The notes under the pieces are model-generated. The model was not told where the DNA came from, searched no databases, and worked only from the letters and a program-made list of their open reading frames with translations. The position numbers were made by a program, and so were the translations under genes. A stretch of DNA of 64,000 bases. Origin: Paenibacillus sp. NAIST15-1 (GTDB taxonomy: Bacteria; Bacillota; Bacilli; Paenibacillales; Paenibacillaceae). Positions 11,706 through 43,626 of this stretch are shown one piece after another. The DNA is taken from NCBI RefSeq assembly GCF_001894745.1, contig NZ_BBYF01000002.1, positions 496,001-560,000 of the forward strand, read 5' to 3'. Within the stretch, counting starts at the first letter, position 1; each line of letters begins with the position of its first letter.

Positions 11706-11734
11706 TTGACTTTATATTTATAAAGTTATATAAT
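11706..11734 (+). promoter_or_regulatory. Promoter with CTTTA-N6-TAAAG operator
   Basis: TTGACT (11706-11711), 17 nt, TATAAT (11729-11734). The perfect palindrome CTTTA-tattta-TAAAG (11710-11725) fills the space between the boxes, ending 3 nt before the -10. Confidence 0.8.
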
Positions 11735-38337: not shown

Positions 38338-38574
38338 TATTCGACTCTAGAAGTGCTAAAAAACAATTATCGACCTTTAACTACACATTATAAATGAATA
38401 TATGAGCACACAGACATATATACGAGTCTACTATAATAGATTATAATGAAATTATCTTTTTAAAATTCTTATACATATCTTACATTTGTTTTTTAATGTG
38501 AGTATGTATATTTTTTGTTTTTTGTGTTACACTTCATATTATTATGATATTTCGCTCTTAGAGGAGATGATAGA
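38338..38574. promoter_or_regulatory. Control region of the repressor cassette
   Basis: A 237-nt AT-rich spacer with several TATAAT-like words (CTATAATAG, TTATAATG near 38430-38447) and an inverted repeat CTTACAT/ATGTGAG (about 38480-38503). I cannot single out one promoter. Confidence 0.45.
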
Positions 38575-39912
38575 ATGAGTGGAAATGTACAAACGGTTGA
38601 CCTGTACGAAGTGCTTCCAGATGTGCTTACTGAAGTGAATAAAAACAAAGAAATGCAAAGAGATATTGAAGAGATACTTGCAACAAAACATAACATCGCA
38701 AGAGGAACATTTGCTGAAATTTTGATAAATAATGGTCGTTTCGACGAAATATTAAATAACATTGAACGTACAGTCGTTGTTAAAGTTGTGAATGAAATAA
38801 CTAATGACAATAGAGTGAATCCAAGTAATTTTTACACAAAAACGGAGATCAATAAAGCAAATAAGTACAAAAGAACAAATGGTGGAGAAGTGTCACTTCC
38901 ATATACTTTTGAGTCTGTACTGAAGACTTCAGATATTGATTATTTAACCGTTTTAAGTTACCAAGACATCGCAAAACTTTGGAACTACGGAATTCTAACT
39001 TACAATTTCCAATCTCAAAGATTATCCAAGAAAAAAATGAATTCAAAAAATAAAATTGTTGAGAAGGCTGATGTTAATTTACGAAGCGTGAAAAACATTG
39101 TTAGATTGATGCAAGAGGGCAAATATAGTCCATCAACATTACTATTTAATGTACTTGTCGATGGTAAAAGTTCTATTGAATACGAAGATGGAGAACTTAC
39201 AGTTACCGAAGAAAGTACTATCAACTTAATTGATGGCATGCATCGCGTACAAGCTATTTTGAAGGTGATTGAAGAGAATCCTGATTTTGAAGGGTATATG
39301 AATGTTGATATAAAACATTACACCCTTGAGAAAGCTCAACAGCTCTTAGCCATAACAAATATGGTAAACCGTTTTGATAAGACATTGATCAAAAATTATA
39401 TGGCTGAATCGATTGGCGCGAAGATTACAAAAGATTTGATGACTATAGCTGAACTCAAAAATAAAGTGTCTATTAAGACCACTTTAGACAAGAAGCTTAA
39501 TTACTACACAAACTTTGCAATCTTGTCTGAAGCTATTGAATCTGTATTTGAGCCTGAAAATACTAAGGATCAGTTCGACTATGCCGATGTTCTTAAAAAG
39601 TTCTTCGGTTACATGATCCCCTCATATGAAGAGAAATTCAAAAATAAGAACGAGGAAATCAAAACAAGTTGGTTTACACATCACAACATGTTCGTAGGTT
39701 TTGTAGTGATTGCTAAGAAACTTTATGATAAATACGGAAAAGATTATCCAGTTGATGAGATTGTAAGAATTATTGATGGAATAGACTTTTCGAAGAATGA
39801 AGATTCTGAACTGAATCAGATTTTGACAACACAAGGGAAAGTAAATAGTAATAAAGTTAAGAAGAATATTAGAGAGTTTTTTGATACGAAGGTAGACGAG
39901 CTGCTTTCATAA
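38575..39912 (+). CDS. yopQ: DGQHR/DndB-like protein (YopQ-like)
   Basis: A 445-residue protein. Residues about 215-260 contain NLIDGMHRVQAILK, a ParB/DndB-type DGQHR motif, followed by VDIKHYTLEKAQQLLAITNM. SPbeta YopQ is about the same size (460 aa) and also precedes yopR, so I call it a YopQ homologue. The role in SPbeta is not well defined; it is part of the lysogeny-control operon. SD AGAGGAG. Confidence 0.7.
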   Translation: MSGNVQTVDLYEVLPDVLTEVNKNKEMQRDIEEILATKHNIARGTFAEILINNGRFDEILNNIERTVVVKVVNEITNDNRVNPSNFYTKTEINKANKYKRTNGGEVSLPYTFESVLKTSDIDYLTVLSYQDIAKLWNYGILTYNFQSQRLSKKKMNSKNKIVEKADVNLRSVKNIVRLMQEGKYSPSTLLFNVLVDGKSSIEYEDGELTVTEESTINLIDGMHRVQAILKVIEENPDFEGYMNVDIKHYTLEKAQQLLAITNMVNRFDKTLIKNYMAESIGAKITKDLMTIAELKNKVSIKTTLDKKLNYYTNFAILSEAIESVFEPENTKDQFDYADVLKKFFGYMIPSYEEKFKNKNEEIKTSWFTHHNMFVGFVVIAKKLYDKYGKDYPVDEIVRIIDGIDFSKNEDSELNQILTTQGKVNSNKVKKNIREFFDTKVDELLS

Positions 39913-39945
39913 GTAGCTCATAATCCTCTCAAGGAGGTATTTGTT

Positions 39946-40923
39946 TTGTCTAATAAGATATATGAAGATAAATTGTTCAATGAAGATTTAAAATATGAGT
40001 TCATCAATCAATATGGATTTGGTACTCAAAAAGTTATTGTTCGCCTATTTAAGGTTTCTCAAGTAATGGAGTCTGATATGGGAAAGGATATATATGACTT
40101 CAATCGTGAGGAATTAAGAAAATTCTTTTTTTATCTTTTACCTAAGACTGAAGCTGCGAGTAATTCGAATGTCACTTGGATTCAGAAATATATTGAGTGG
40201 GCAATTGATGAAGGCTATAAGGAAGGGCTAAACCCTCTCGACATGGTCGATTCAACTTGGAAGAAGCAGTTTGCTAATGCTAATCTGAAGCAGCTCTGGA
40301 CTGACAAAGAGATAGATGAGATTGTTGACCCAACTAAACGTGCTAATTATCAAGACGCTGCACTTGTTATGATGCTTTTCTCAGGGATTAAAGGCCAAGG
40401 GAACAGTGAAATACTTAGTCTTAGAGAAAAGGATATAAACTTTAAAACAAATGAAGTGCTATTACACGATGAAGATGGAAGCACAAGGACTACAATCGTA
40501 AGTGATAAATGTATTGAATTCATGCGTAAGGCATTAAATGAGACAGAATATGAAAAGATGAATGGCTTTGCTTCGCCAGATATCAAAGCTCCAACTGCGA
40601 AGTTGGTTGAAAATGAATATGTGATCAAGAGTGCAACAACACGCACTATTCACTTTGAAGAGGCAGATAAGTTCATTGTAAGTAGAAGGATCTCAAAAAT
40701 TGCAGATGAATTAAATATGCCTACATTTACGCCTACTGCAATCTTTAGAAGTGGCATGCTCGCACTGGCTAAGGATGCTTACTTGCAGTCTGGTGAGTTA
40801 ACTGATGACGCAGTAAAAGTGATTCAAGTGAAATTTGGTGGTAGTGGTGACACAATCGATTATAGATTGAAGCAAGATTTATTAAATGCAGAACTTGTAA
40901 AAGAAGTTTATCAAATACCCTAG
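39946..40923 (+). CDS. yopR: MrpR/YopR-like master repressor (tyrosine-recombinase fold)
   Basis: A 325-residue protein, exactly the length of SPbeta YopR (MrpR), placed after a YopQ-like gene as in SPbeta. It has a tyrosine-recombinase layout (core-binding half about 1-105, catalytic-like half about 110-325). The active site is degenerate: GIKGQGNSEIL where the first Arg is expected, TAIFRSG for HxLR, and FGGSGD for the second His. MrpR binds operators and keeps the prophage silent. TTG start behind AAGGAGG. Confidence 0.8.
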   Translation: MSNKIYEDKLFNEDLKYEFINQYGFGTQKVIVRLFKVSQVMESDMGKDIYDFNREELRKFFFYLLPKTEAASNSNVTWIQKYIEWAIDEGYKEGLNPLDMVDSTWKKQFANANLKQLWTDKEIDEIVDPTKRANYQDAALVMMLFSGIKGQGNSEILSLREKDINFKTNEVLLHDEDGSTRTTIVSDKCIEFMRKALNETEYEKMNGFASPDIKAPTAKLVENEYVIKSATTRTIHFEEADKFIVSRRISKIADELNMPTFTPTAIFRSGMLALAKDAYLQSGELTDDAVKVIQVKFGGSGDTIDYRLKQDLLNAELVKEVYQIP

Positions 40924-40948
40924 ATTATAATTCTAGGGTATTTTTATT
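40914..40948 (+). terminator. Terminator of the yopQ-yopR-like operon
   Basis: AAATACCCTAGA and TCTAGGGTATTT form a 12-bp stem followed by TTATTATTTT. Confidence 0.92.
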
Positions 40949-40955
40949 ATTTTGC

Positions 40956-40985
40956 TTGACTATATGGAGATAAATATGGTAAATT
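40956..40985 (+). promoter_or_regulatory. Promoter of the agr-like group
   Basis: TTGACT (40956-40961), 18 nt, TAAATT (40980-40985). A TATACT at 40985-40990 is an alternative -10 at poor spacing. Confidence 0.5.
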
Positions 40986-41013
40986 ATACTCATAAAGAAG
41001 AGGGGATAGAAGA

Positions 41014-41535
41014 GTGATAAGTAAATTAAGTAAAAAGTTAGCGAAATATTTGTTTAGTAATATTGATGAGAATGATATGACTAGATTTGCCAACAAGGGA
41101 TATGATATAGTTGAACTAGAGAGCAGGTTAAAAGTATTATTTATATACATGTTTATGATACCAATTATTATCATTGAAAGTGCATTTACGGGATTATGGA
41201 TGGAGAATCTTATTTCACTAGTTATAGTTTTTGGATTAAGAGTTCTAAATAAAGGGCATCACTTTTCGCCTGATGTGTGTCTTATTGTTACAACTTCTAT
41301 TATTGTATCTGTGCCTTTGATTAGTGAGTTTTTAAATAATGATTTATTAAAATTAAATATAGTAATAATAACAATTATATTATACATATTGTTTCCAGAA
41401 CAGTTGAGTACTAAGAATTATCATAAGAAATTTATTTCAATAATATTGTGTGTTTTTGGTTATTACTTAATTGATTTACTTTTAGCTGCTCTGTTTATCT
41501 TATCATTTGATCAACTAAAACTAAAAAGAGGGTAG
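41014..41535 (+). CDS. agrB: AgrB-like peptide-processing membrane protease
   Basis: A 173-residue polytopic membrane protein. LRVLNKGHHFSPDVC gives H82 and C89, 7 residues apart as in the catalytic His77/Cys84 of Staphylococcus AgrB, after a conserved Arg. The remaining hydrophobic helices and the length (about 190) fit. AgrB cleaves and cyclises the AgrD pro-peptide. It follows the repressor operon by 90 nt, with its own promoter. Confidence 0.82.
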   Translation: MISKLSKKLAKYLFSNIDENDMTRFANKGYDIVELESRLKVLFIYMFMIPIIIIESAFTGLWMENLISLVIVFGLRVLNKGHHFSPDVCLIVTTSIIVSVPLISEFLNNDLLKLNIVIITIILYILFPEQLSTKNYHKKFISIILCVFGYYLIDLLLAALFILSFDQLKLKRG

Positions 41536-41544
41536 GGCATTTTA

Positions 41545-42207
41545 ATGCTAAATGACTTTTTAGGGTATTCGCTATTTTCAACTTTAGAATATCTGGGTAT
41601 ATTCTATATGATATTTACGCTATTTAGCTTACATCCTTCTTATCACATTATTAAATTAGTAACAATGTCATTAATAATATCAATATTGTCGTATATATGT
41701 GTAGTTTTTAAAATATACGACCTCATTCCAGCACCTTTGATAACAATACTTACAATATCTATGATGATTCATTTTATAATAAGAAAAAAAGTTGTTTATA
41801 GTTTTGTTATCACTGGAGCTGGTGTAGCAATTGCGGCAGGTATACAACTAAGTACCACAGGTTTGTTCCTTTTGAATAATTTTCTATCCATAGAGCAATT
41901 ATCACATTCATTTGGTATTAAGACATATGTGATACAGTCAATAAATACATTCGCATACTTCTCGATATCATTAATTTCACATCACACACATGGTCGCTTT
42001 GGTTACAGCTTTAGAAAAGGGAATGAATATAAGAAATTTGTTGTGCTTGCATTGTTACTAGTGGTAACTATATCAATATTTTTCATAGCGTTCTCATTTA
42101 TTGACACAACTGAGTTGACATATTTATTTTTATTTATTGTAGTTGTATTATCAGCTATTATTTTCTTATACCTGTCTAATAAACAAGATGAGTATGAATT
42201 TAAATAA
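41545..42207 (+). CDS. Polytopic membrane protein, possible AgrC-like sensor domain
   Basis: A 220-residue protein with six or seven hydrophobic helices and almost no soluble part. In size and position it resembles the membrane sensor half of AgrC, but it has no histidine-kinase domain. It starts 9 nt after agrB. It could bind the peptide and pass the signal by holding the LytTR protein at the membrane, as in inhibitor/LytTR systems of streptococci. This is inference. Confidence 0.6.
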   Translation: MLNDFLGYSLFSTLEYLGIFYMIFTLFSLHPSYHIIKLVTMSLIISILSYICVVFKIYDLIPAPLITILTISMMIHFIIRKKVVYSFVITGAGVAIAAGIQLSTTGLFLLNNFLSIEQLSHSFGIKTYVIQSINTFAYFSISLISHHTHGRFGYSFRKGNEYKKFVVLALLLVVTISIFFIAFSFIDTTELTYLFLFIVVVLSAIIFLYLSNKQDEYEFK

Positions 42208-42241
42208 TATATAAGTTAACTAATTTGAGGAGGTGAATAAA

Positions 42242-42349
42242 ATGAAAAAGTCGAAAATGAATGTAGCAGGTGCATTGCTTGTGGCTGTGTTTGCACTTCC
42301 ATCTGTAGTTGTTGGCAAGTTCTTCTTGTTCTGTGATACAAGCAAGTAA
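42242..42349 (+). CDS. AgrD-like small peptide precursor, 35 aa
   Basis: A basic start (MKKSKM), a hydrophobic amphipathic middle, then KFFLFCDTSK with the only cysteine at 31. GAGGAGG lies 8-9 nt upstream. Position next to agrB suggests the signal precursor. It is odd in lacking the acidic C-terminal tail that AgrB normally removes. Either the ring forms at the natural end or the peptide is another class. Confidence 0.55.
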   Translation: MKKSKMNVAGALLVAVFALPSVVVGKFFLFCDTSK

Positions 42350-42392
42350 TATCAAACATAAAGAGTTACATAAGAATTATACATAGTGAAAT

Positions 42393-42415
42393 GAGCGTAT
42401 CTATTTGATACGCTC
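42393..42415 (+). terminator. Hairpin after the peptide gene
   Basis: GAGCGTATC-tattt-GATACGCTC is a perfect 9-bp stem; the T-run is missing, so it may be a partial terminator or RNA-stabilising hairpin before the LytTR gene. Confidence 0.6.
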
Positions 42416-42460
42416 TAAATACACCATCGCATCAACAATAATAAGGGGATGGATTATACT

Positions 42461-42949
42461 ATGTTTCGAAAAATAATTGAAACCATTAAAAGAATGTCTG
42501 CAAATGAACTGATAAGTGTGTCTTCTGAAGTTGATACTGAATTATCTAAATTAGATGGTGTAGTTAAAATTCCTGTGGGAGTAAATAAATTTACTGTCAT
42601 TGAGGTAGACACCATAAACTACATAGTTTGCCCTAAAAATAAGGTGGCTATCATTCATTTGAATGATGGAAAATCTATTGAATGCAAACTTTTATCGAAT
42701 GAGCTTTGTGAATATTTAGAGTTTAATCATAATAACTTTAGAATGTTAGACAACGGATTGTTGGTTAATATAGATAATATTATTGAATATGATTCATATA
42801 TGCTGAAAATTTATTTTACAGAAGAGAAGTTCGCTGTTATAAACAAAAAAGCAATGAAAAATATTGTTTCTAAATTAAATATTGAGGATATAACAAAATC
42901 TGCTGATCCCCAATTGGATTACTTAGTTAAGTTTGTAAAGAATTCTTAA
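42461..42949 (+). CDS. LytTR-domain DNA-binding regulator
   Basis: A 162-residue protein. Residues about 45-145 read as a LytTR domain, the DNA-binding fold of AgrA: FTVIEVDTINYIVCPKNKVA, then KLLSNELCEYLEFNHNNFRM and LLVNIDNIIEYD. There is no receiver domain, so it is not a phospho-acceptor. With the kinase-free membrane protein upstream it would form a two-protein switch responding to the peptide. ATG 42461 follows AAGGGGA. Confidence 0.75.
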   Translation: MFRKIIETIKRMSANELISVSSEVDTELSKLDGVVKIPVGVNKFTVIEVDTINYIVCPKNKVAIIHLNDGKSIECKLLSNELCEYLEFNHNNFRMLDNGLLVNIDNIIEYDSYMLKIYFTEEKFAVINKKAMKNIVSKLNIEDITKSADPQLDYLVKFVKNS

Positions 42950-42969
42950 TACCATGCCTGAAGCATTCT

Positions 42970-42988
42970 GTCAAGGATTTTGTTTTTT
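42970..42988 (+). repeat. Direct repeat copy 2: GTCAAGGATTTTGTTTTTT
   Basis: Identical to 24180-24198; just downstream of the LytTR gene. Confidence 0.6.
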
Positions 42989-43065
42989 TGAAAAAAGTTG
43001 TTTAAAGATATTTATTAGGTTGATATAATTTTAATATCAATATTTAGTAAAAGGAGGAATTGCCG

Positions 43066-43308
43066 ATGACATCAATACAGGATGTGCTTTGGAGCAATTG
43101 GGAGACTAGTGTCCATCATTTTTTCTTGTGGATTAGAAATGTATGCGAGATAGATGAGAATAGTGTAACTTATCAACAGTTACGTGAAATAATACATAGT
43201 GTTAATGACATCTCAGATTTTACAAACTTCTTTGATGGTGACATTGACAATATTTCTGATGCTGTTAGTGGACTTATTCGGTACAAAGAACTTTTTCGTA
43301 TCGCGTAA
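43066..43308 (+). CDS. Hypothetical protein, 80 aa
   Basis: ATG 43066, 8 nt after AGGAGG. Helical acidic protein (TSIQDVLWSNWETSVHHFFL). Unknown. Confidence 0.65.
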   Translation: MTSIQDVLWSNWETSVHHFFLWIRNVCEIDENSVTYQQLREIIHSVNDISDFTNFFDGDIDNISDAVSGLIRYKELFRIA

Positions 43309-43465: not shown

Positions 43466-43540
43466 GGACTCATAGCTCAGTGGTAGAGCGTTCGGCTCAT
43501 AACCGATTGGTCGTAAGTTCAAGTCTTACTGAGTCCACCA
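43466..43540 (+). tRNA. tRNA-Met (CAT)
   Basis: 75 nt with encoded CCA. Acceptor GGACTCA/TGAGTCC pairs perfectly; anticodon loop CT-CAT-AA; T-arm GTTCAAGTC. The anticodon stem has a T:T at its first pair. CAT could also be tRNA-Ile2 after lysidine modification. Confidence 0.9.
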
Positions 43541-43543
43541 TGT

Positions 43544-43615
43544 GTCTCTATGGCCAAGTGGAAAAGGCGCAGATCTCCTAAGTCTGTATCGATGGTTCGA
43601 ATCCATCTAGGGGCG
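43544..43615 (+). tRNA. tRNA-Arg (CCT)
   Basis: 72 nt, no encoded CCA. Acceptor GTCTCTA/TAGGGGC with several G:U pairs; anticodon loop CT-CCT-AA reads AGG. T-loop GGTTCGAATCC is canonical. AGG and other A/G-rich Arg codons are common in these genes, so supplying this tRNA may aid phage translation. Confidence 0.85.
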
Positions 43616-43626
43616 TTTGAAATCAA

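Follow-up and report, generated by a model that had tools for sequence, protein, structure and literature searches.

Organization of the repressor region

The DNA analyzed here is a stretch of 64,000 nucleotides from Paenibacillus sp. NAIST15-1 (contig NZ_BBYF01000002.1, positions 496,001 to 560,000), hereafter called the window, and the subject is a small cassette of agr-like genes that directly follows the master repressor gene mrpR of a prophage. The prophage is SPbeta-like, is represented by a record of 146,367 bp in IMG/VR, spans C2:462055-608421, and contains the whole window. Eight large proteins encoded beyond the window were checked, and they include a tape measure protein, a portal protein, a helicase, a ribonucleotide reductase, a DNA polymerase, and, near the right end of the prophage, an integrase related to DNA invertases.

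The preliminary description of this DNA, made from the letters alone, had placed an agr-type gene group in an SPbeta-type repressor region. This was confirmed: yopQ and mrpR are followed by agrB, memP, a peptide gene, and lytTR. The features of the region are as follows (window coordinates).

38575 to 39912, + strand: yopQ-like gene, DndB family, 445 amino acids (Pfam DndB 57.3 bits, 1.8e-15; phrog_5732 1e-77)
39946 to 40923, + strand: mrpR, yopR-like master repressor with tyrosine-recombinase fold, 325 amino acids (Pfam MrpR_N_CB, 2.6e-25; MrpR_C_cat, 1e-19)
40913 to 40943, + strand: terminator-like hairpin at the end of mrpR (stem of 12 pairs, then a T-rich tail)
40956 to 40985, + strand: promoter-like site of the cassette, TTGACT-18-TAAATT, with TG ahead of the second hexamer
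41014 to 41535, + strand: agrB, membrane peptidase family, 173 amino acids (Pfam AgrB 30.6 bits; conserved H83 and C89)
41545 to 42207, + strand: memP, seven-helix membrane protein of 220 amino acids, interpreted as an orphan sensor domain of the AgrC type that lacks the kinase (phrog_15604 5.3e-10; structural model; kinase-fused homologue in L040)
42242 to 42349, + strand: peptide in the position of AgrD, 35 amino acids, short tail (open reading frame with ribosome-binding site; homologous peptides, by eye, in L088, L087, and L200)
42393 to 42415, + strand: RNA hairpin between the peptide gene and lytTR (z -2.8 and -2.5)
42449 to 42949, + strand: lytTR, LytTR regulator without receiver domain, 166 amino acids (Pfam 19.0 bits, below the cut-off; fold match to the AgrA LytTR domain 4g4k, E 1.5e-5)
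43066 to 43308, + strand: orfX, small gene conserved downstream of the cassette and found also in loci without it (own profile)

MrpR contains both characteristic domains (Pfam PF22822 and PF22823) and is adjoined by YopQ, as is typical for the operon of SPbeta. The gap between the mrpR stop codon and the agrB start codon is 90 nt. The terminator-like hairpin, which begins inside the end of mrpR, would close the yopQ-mrpR operon, and the promoter-like site would open the cassette.

Proteins encoded by the cassette

AgrB of the window scores above the Pfam cut-off (30.6 versus 23 bits). In the alignment of 14 phage AgrBs, the residues R76, G81, H83, C89, P128, and K139 are invariant, and the catalytic histidine and cysteine of the family thus correspond to H83 and C89. 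Of the pair H82/C89 named in the preliminary description, the cysteine is retained and the histidine has to be moved by one position.

MemP did not match any Pfam family, and a Foldseek comparison of its model with the PDB yielded nothing at an E value of 0.001 or better. The model has seven long helices (mean predicted local distance difference test score 77.6). The earlier view of a kinase-free membrane protein holds. A family member of 458 amino acids is encoded beside agrB in another genome (locus L040; loci are denoted by L numbers), and this protein joins the MemP domain to the ATPase domain of a histidine kinase (HATPase_c, 76.7 bits). In view of this homologue, the most fitting interpretation of MemP is an orphan sensor domain of the AgrC type.

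The LytTR protein of the window remains below the Pfam cut-off (19.0 versus 22.6 bits). Its structural model matches the LytTR domain of Staphylococcus aureus AgrA (4g4k) with an E value of 1.5e-5 and a target TM-score of 0.83. Ahead of this domain the model contains a helix and a low-confidence stretch, and there is no receiver, as had been described. Among five phage relatives, three pass the Pfam cut-off (L133, 34.2; L146, 36.9; L159, 26.1 bits), one fails (L142, 18.2 bits), and one has no match (L158).

Using tblastn with single proteins, MemP, LytTR, and AgrB found no match among phages at E 1, a blastn search of plasmids gave no match, and no relatives of the L087 MemP were found in IMG/VR.

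Absence of AimR and of a histidine kinase

AimR had been reported missing from the window, and the AimR profile (PF22871) indeed has no match in the whole genome of the strain. Within the family it is above the cut-off in none of 394 genomes, with weak matches in eight; the B. subtilis positive control was matched. A histidine-kinase ATPase was likewise not found in C2:462055-608421: the 100 matches of HATPase_c and the 18 matches of HATPase_c_5 all lie outside of the prophage.

Distribution of the cassette and co-inheritance with MrpR

MrpR (PF22822) was detected in 40 of 394 genomes of the family and in 45 of 392 genomes sampled at the level of the order, the two sets overlapping. In total, 63 mrpR loci above the cut-off were examined (the window, 7, 35, and 20 from outside the family); matches below the Pfam cut-off were left out (G392 and G237 in the family, G433 and G059 in the order). 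yopQ adjoins mrpR in 39 of the 63 loci, 38 recognized by script and in addition L087, in which mrpR is split into two frames.

The preliminary description had proposed a look for the same genes beside mrpR in other phages, and they are frequent there. The full cassette lies within 5 kb downstream of mrpR in 21 of the 39 yopQ-mrpR loci of whole genomes, versus one of the 24 mrpR loci in which no yopQ is visible (L118, located where its contig ends). In IMG/VR it accompanies 15 of 25 mrpR loci, including the window's own record and several phages that are the same as in the genome loci. The whole genome of the strain (6.77 Mb) contains only two AgrB genes, and the recurrence of the cassette at this place is therefore more than chance. 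Named hosts are Paenibacillus xylaniclasticus, P. radicibacter, and Paenibacillaceae bacterium CAVE-418; P. paeoniae and Paenibacillus sp. 1011MAR3C5 carry the cassette in a downstream position. In L095 and L101 it begins about 2.2-2.3 kb downstream of mrpR, past a lone lytTR.

Two layouts occur, memP-agrB-agrD-lytTR in most cassettes (the first layout) versus agrB-memP-peptide-lytTR in the window and others. In two trees, the 18 AgrB rows of the first layout group together as a single clade, with support values of 99 and 98 (Shimodaira-Hasegawa-like approximate likelihood-ratio test); rows labelled 'chrom' in these trees are loci without mrpR. A single clade of all AgrBs from SPbeta-like phages was not rejected by the approximately unbiased test (p 0.45; L087, the longest branch, was excluded), and several independent captures are therefore not shown.

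The protein distances were compared with those of MrpR for 22 phages. The correlation coefficients were 0.58 for AgrB, 0.79 for MemP, and 0.63 for LytTR, and none of 2000 permutations was as high. Within the first layout (18 phages) the respective values were 0.52, 0.63, and 0.54. These correlations speak for a long co-inheritance of the cassette and MrpR.

Relatives of memP also occur outside of mrpR regions, in 13 of 60 genomes including that of the strain itself, and memP, agrB, and lytTR are found together in 8 of 14 such loci. The second memP-agrB pair of the strain is located on contig C3 (L043), and a relative has a similar locus (L034). By eye, a holin-like gene lies near both, and some of the loci without mrpR may thus be other prophages.

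Downstream of the cassette, orfX was recognized in 19 of 22 cassette loci with its own profile, which had been seeded with ten of these sequences. The family is also present downstream of mrpR in loci without cassette (L053, L054, L056, L119, and others), and it has two sub-forms, which by eye appear to be fused in L053 and L054. Just downstream of orfX in the window are two phage tRNA genes, tRNA-Met (cat, 43466-43540) and tRNA-Arg (cct, 43543-43616). At L131:9239-12481, a ribonucleotide reductase large subunit of 1080 amino acids has two matching blocks with a differing middle, perhaps an intein.

The putative signal peptide

As had been noted, the window encodes a peptide of 35 amino acids with one cysteine; it starts at ATG 42242 behind an AGGAGG. 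Short peptides of this kind are common to one sub-lineage (the window, L088, L087, and L200), and by eye they share the core K-[FI]-x-x-F-x-[DN]; the L200 peptide would need an ATT start. The cysteine is present in the window and L088 and absent from L087 and L200.

Most relatives encode a more typical AgrD-like peptide with ring and tail. In the first layout the ring, with boundaries that are inferred, is variable and mostly consists of a serine and four residues (SWTIL, SWTLI, SWTVI, SALWL, SWALF), and the tail mostly contains (V/A)P, being short in L094. A tail is also present in the agrB-memP phages L107, L159, L178, L179, and L193, and it is shorter in L180 and L183. Variable rings joined to a conserved tail are the pattern expected of a specific signal.

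The preliminary description had foreseen a cyclic peptide of the CDTSK type. A CDTSK thiolactone is unlikely, because two of the four peptides of the sub-lineage lack the cysteine and CDTSK is not followed by anything for AgrB to remove. The enterococcal peptide GBAP is a larger Ser/Thr lactone, and it is possible that the signal of the window is of this kind or a linear peptide. We also considered a frameshift by which the peptide would continue into the overlapping frame downstream, and discarded it, as none of the homologues seen supported it.

Promoter motifs, hairpins, and SOS-like sites

A repeated-word search for an MrpR-binding element gave no clear 15-mer and led to a palindromic promoter motif, TTGACTTTA-N6-TAAAG. 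The palindrome CTTTA-N6-TAAAG between -35 and -10 is common to the phage promoters at window positions 11706, 12960, 14807, 24962, and 31777 and is possibly an operator. The first 20 bases of the cassette promoter fit the motif with two mismatches (P 0.013, given TTGACT). With up to two mismatches, the prophage contains seven sites on the + strand that are followed by a -10-like hexamer (by eye) and two others, versus 3.4 sites overall and 0.42 with a -10 expected from a Markov model; the motif was derived from promoters of this very phage, and the count is thus partly circular. In the promoter scan overall, sites were no more frequent than in shuffled sequences. The motif is no more than a candidate for the site of repression by MrpR (SPBRE). 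Since MrpR of SPbeta binds PaimR, according to the available part of PMC10516654, control of the cassette promoter by MrpR is a natural guess, and only that. Another element, TTCGACA-N6-GACA, was at first considered as an MrpR operator; the patterns used found no copy in the prophage itself. The shorter form TCGACA-N6-GACA occurs in 26 of 80 loci scanned (duplicates included) and not in the window. It lies 127-255 nt downstream of mrpR in four loci without cassette, including phi3T (L052:10090) and Geobacillus E3 (L004, L152, and L154 are also listed), and downstream of lytTR in cassette loci, e.g., L085, L102, and L107.

A hairpin between the peptide gene and lytTR was predicted in all 14 cassettes with a gap of more than 30 nt (z -2.3 to -8.4, mean -5.0), some of the lytTR starts having been set by eye. 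In two downstream cassettes this gap is only 11 nt.

The sequence GAAC-N4-GTTC, which we take to be a LexA box, is located between lytTR and orfX in 14 of 17 first-layout loci examined (16 with cassette and L089); it is one base off in two loci and missing in one. It was found in none of the four agrB-memP loci examined, the window included, and in the window it is absent from the surrounding 20 kb. By eye, five first-layout phages (L086, L094, L098, L102, and L111) have a second site of this type ahead of a MazF-like gene upstream of yopQ, and the protein of L102 was identified as PemK_toxin (89.7 bits). SOS-box-like sites are thus found on both flanks of the yopQ-mrpR-agr module in first-layout relatives. 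Arbitrium of phi3T acts via MazE-MazF, as stated in the accessible part of PMC10769878.

Comparison with known systems

Like the cassette, the peptide-signal genes of the arbitrium system (AimR-AimP-aimX of SPbeta and phi3T) belong to this repressor region in SPbeta-like phages, and the part of arbitrium in the lysis-lysogeny decision is the one proposed here for the cassette. The components are different, however: AimR is the cytoplasmic receptor of an imported hexapeptide, whereas the cassette encodes a membrane sensor, AgrB, and a LytTR regulator, and the arbitrium genes lie upstream of yopQ-mrpR, whereas the cassette lies downstream. The accessible sections of PMC8612738 call the yopM-yopR operon unique to B. 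subtilis arbitrium phages and place an AimR operator between yopR and yopS. With staphylococcal agr (AgrBDCA) the cassette shares AgrB, an AgrD-like peptide in most relatives, the AgrC-like sensor domain, and the LytTR DNA-binding domain. In contrast to agr, it has neither a histidine kinase nor a receiver domain, and it is phage-borne.

Similar genes are present in other phages. Profiles reached the Brevibacillus phages Abouo and Davies, in which memP, agrB, agrD, and lytTR lie between the integrase and genes annotated as transcriptional regulators. MemP, AgrB, and LytTR of the window match PHROGs 15604, 10353, and 15081, which are those of Abouo gp44, gp45, and gp47; Davies gp48 also matches the LytTR PHROG (15081), and memP is represented by two genes in Davies. 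The Pfam LytTR cut-off is exceeded by Abouo gp47 (29.4 bits) and not by Davies gp48 (16.9). The presence of AgrB, AgrD, and membrane proteins without HATPase domain in Davies, Emery, and Abouo was noted in 2014 (PMC3901668, seen in part), and the sections of that paper on these agr genes name no LytTR gene. Abouo and Davies differ from the phages studied here in being 45-kb phages with Xre-type regulators, and the MrpR profile had no match in the 45 kb scanned of each. The C. difficile phage phiCDHM1 carries agrB, agrD, and a sensor gene (agr3), but its AgrC kinase is present and a response regulator gene is absent, according to the parts of PMC3901668 that were available.

The direct route from membrane to LytTR, thought to be new in the preliminary description, has precedents. 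In the LytTR Regulatory Systems (PMC6193735, available in part) a membrane protein controls LytTR and no kinase takes part, and kinase-less phage agr genes were noted as early as 2014. A description of an agr-like cassette beside mrpR was not found in the literature accessible to the search, outside of which were subscription papers and preprints. One review that covers arbitrium and LytTR mentions, in its available text, agr homologues in Bacillus and C. difficile phages and, loosely, in SPbeta-like phages; the text of a 2026 review of phage communication does not contain 'agr', 'AgrB', or 'LytTR'.

A proposed kinase-free sensing module at the lysogeny switch

From its position, conservation, and co-inheritance with mrpR, we infer that the cassette would control lysis versus lysogeny. 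We lean slightly towards the view that it is a phage-owned sensing module derived from agr, which works without a kinase, belongs to the lysogeny switch, and has in SPbeta-like phages of the Paenibacillaceae and neighbouring families the role that arbitrium has in the SPbeta phages of Bacillus. AgrB would cut and export the peptide, which would accumulate outside as phage-bearing cells become more numerous. MemP, as an AgrC-type sensor without kinase, would bind it, and occupied MemP would directly change how active the LytTR regulator is, with no phosphorylation step. The regulator might then target phage promoters in the vicinity of mrpR or orfX, and a high signal would favour lysogeny. In favour of this view are also the LytTR fold, the kinase-fused relative of MemP, the negative results for AimR and for HATPase domains in the prophage, the variable rings with conserved tail in canonical relatives, the gene set of Abouo and Davies, and the fit of the cassette promoter to the motif of other promoters of the phage.

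Several observations weigh against this sensing module. The peptide of the window lacks the usual tail, and the assignments of AgrB and LytTR in the window have modest sequence scores. A scan of the window for direct repeats of the LytTR type (9 bp, up to one mismatch, 20-23 bp apart) found none in 40915-41020, 42205-42450, and 42945-43070, and so none at the promoter of the cassette or of orfX; one AT-rich pair of 9 bp lies at 38398, upstream of yopQ. In L184, memP-agrB-lytTR precedes mrpR by 2-4 kb and no yopQ accompanies this mrpR, and in L089 and L141 lytTR adjoins mrpR in the absence of agrB and memP. Finally, 18 of the 39 yopQ-mrpR loci have no cassette, close ones (P. profundus, P. apiarius) among them, and the cassette is therefore not essential to control by MrpR.

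The last point would also fit cargo for lysogenic conversion, which we consider unlikely as the explanation: an agr-like signal would change the behaviour of the host, LytTR would act on host genes, and the mrpR neighbourhood would only provide expression in the lysogen. Such a role was proposed for the agr genes of phiCDHM1 (available sections of PMC3901668), and the gene sets without mrpR described above are in line with it. However, the recurrent place beside mrpR, the divergence shared with MrpR, and the gene set near regulators of the unrelated Abouovirus phages argue for the switch itself.

It is quite unlikely that the cassette is a LytTR Regulatory System, in which MemP would inhibit LytTR and answer a membrane or metabolic cue, with agrB and the peptide as accessories. 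In the accessible part of PMC6193735, a receiver-less LytTR protein together with a membrane protein is the minimal form of these systems (HdrRM and BrsRM of S. mutans), and the cassette has both and is kinase-free; L089 and L141 keep lytTR alone of the three genes. In the described systems, however, the regulator gene comes first and direct repeats lie about 10 bp upstream of the -35 box of the operon, whereas lytTR is the last gene of the cassette and 40915-41020 is free of repeats. Moreover, the cassette has AgrB and a peptide in addition, MemP belongs to no Pfam family, and agrB is present wherever memP lies downstream of mrpR.

Very unlikely is a decaying signal gene in the sub-lineage of the window, with the phage listening to an agr-type peptide of the host or of another element: the short-tailed peptides and the second memP-agrB pair on contig C3 would suit it, but the core is kept by short peptides of divergent phages, the ribosome-binding site of the window peptide is good, and the AgrB dyad is retained.

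Implications for phage communication

As for the sensing module, the chances appear evenly balanced that SPbeta-like phages of the Paenibacillales possess a second system of phage-to-phage communication that is unrelated to arbitrium, in which a peptide processed by AgrB is exported and sensed at the cell surface by an AgrC-type receptor without kinase, which directly controls LytTR and hence the MrpR switch. On this view, the gene set near the regulators of the Abouovirus phages would point to repeated recruitment of phage communication that is sensed at the membrane. By what means the SPbeta repressor is lost during the SOS response is called unknown in the part of PMC8612738 that was available, and the SOS-box-like sites flanking the module in relatives offer a testable start on this question. 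If the proposal is true, two unrelated peptide systems serve one repressor region in SPbeta-like phages, and phage communication would be a module that can be exchanged, and not something that Bacillus phages invented. Unlike AimR, the receptor would face outward, and the signal would pass from the membrane to the DNA without phosphorylation. The variable AgrD rings would let phages separate kin from stranger.

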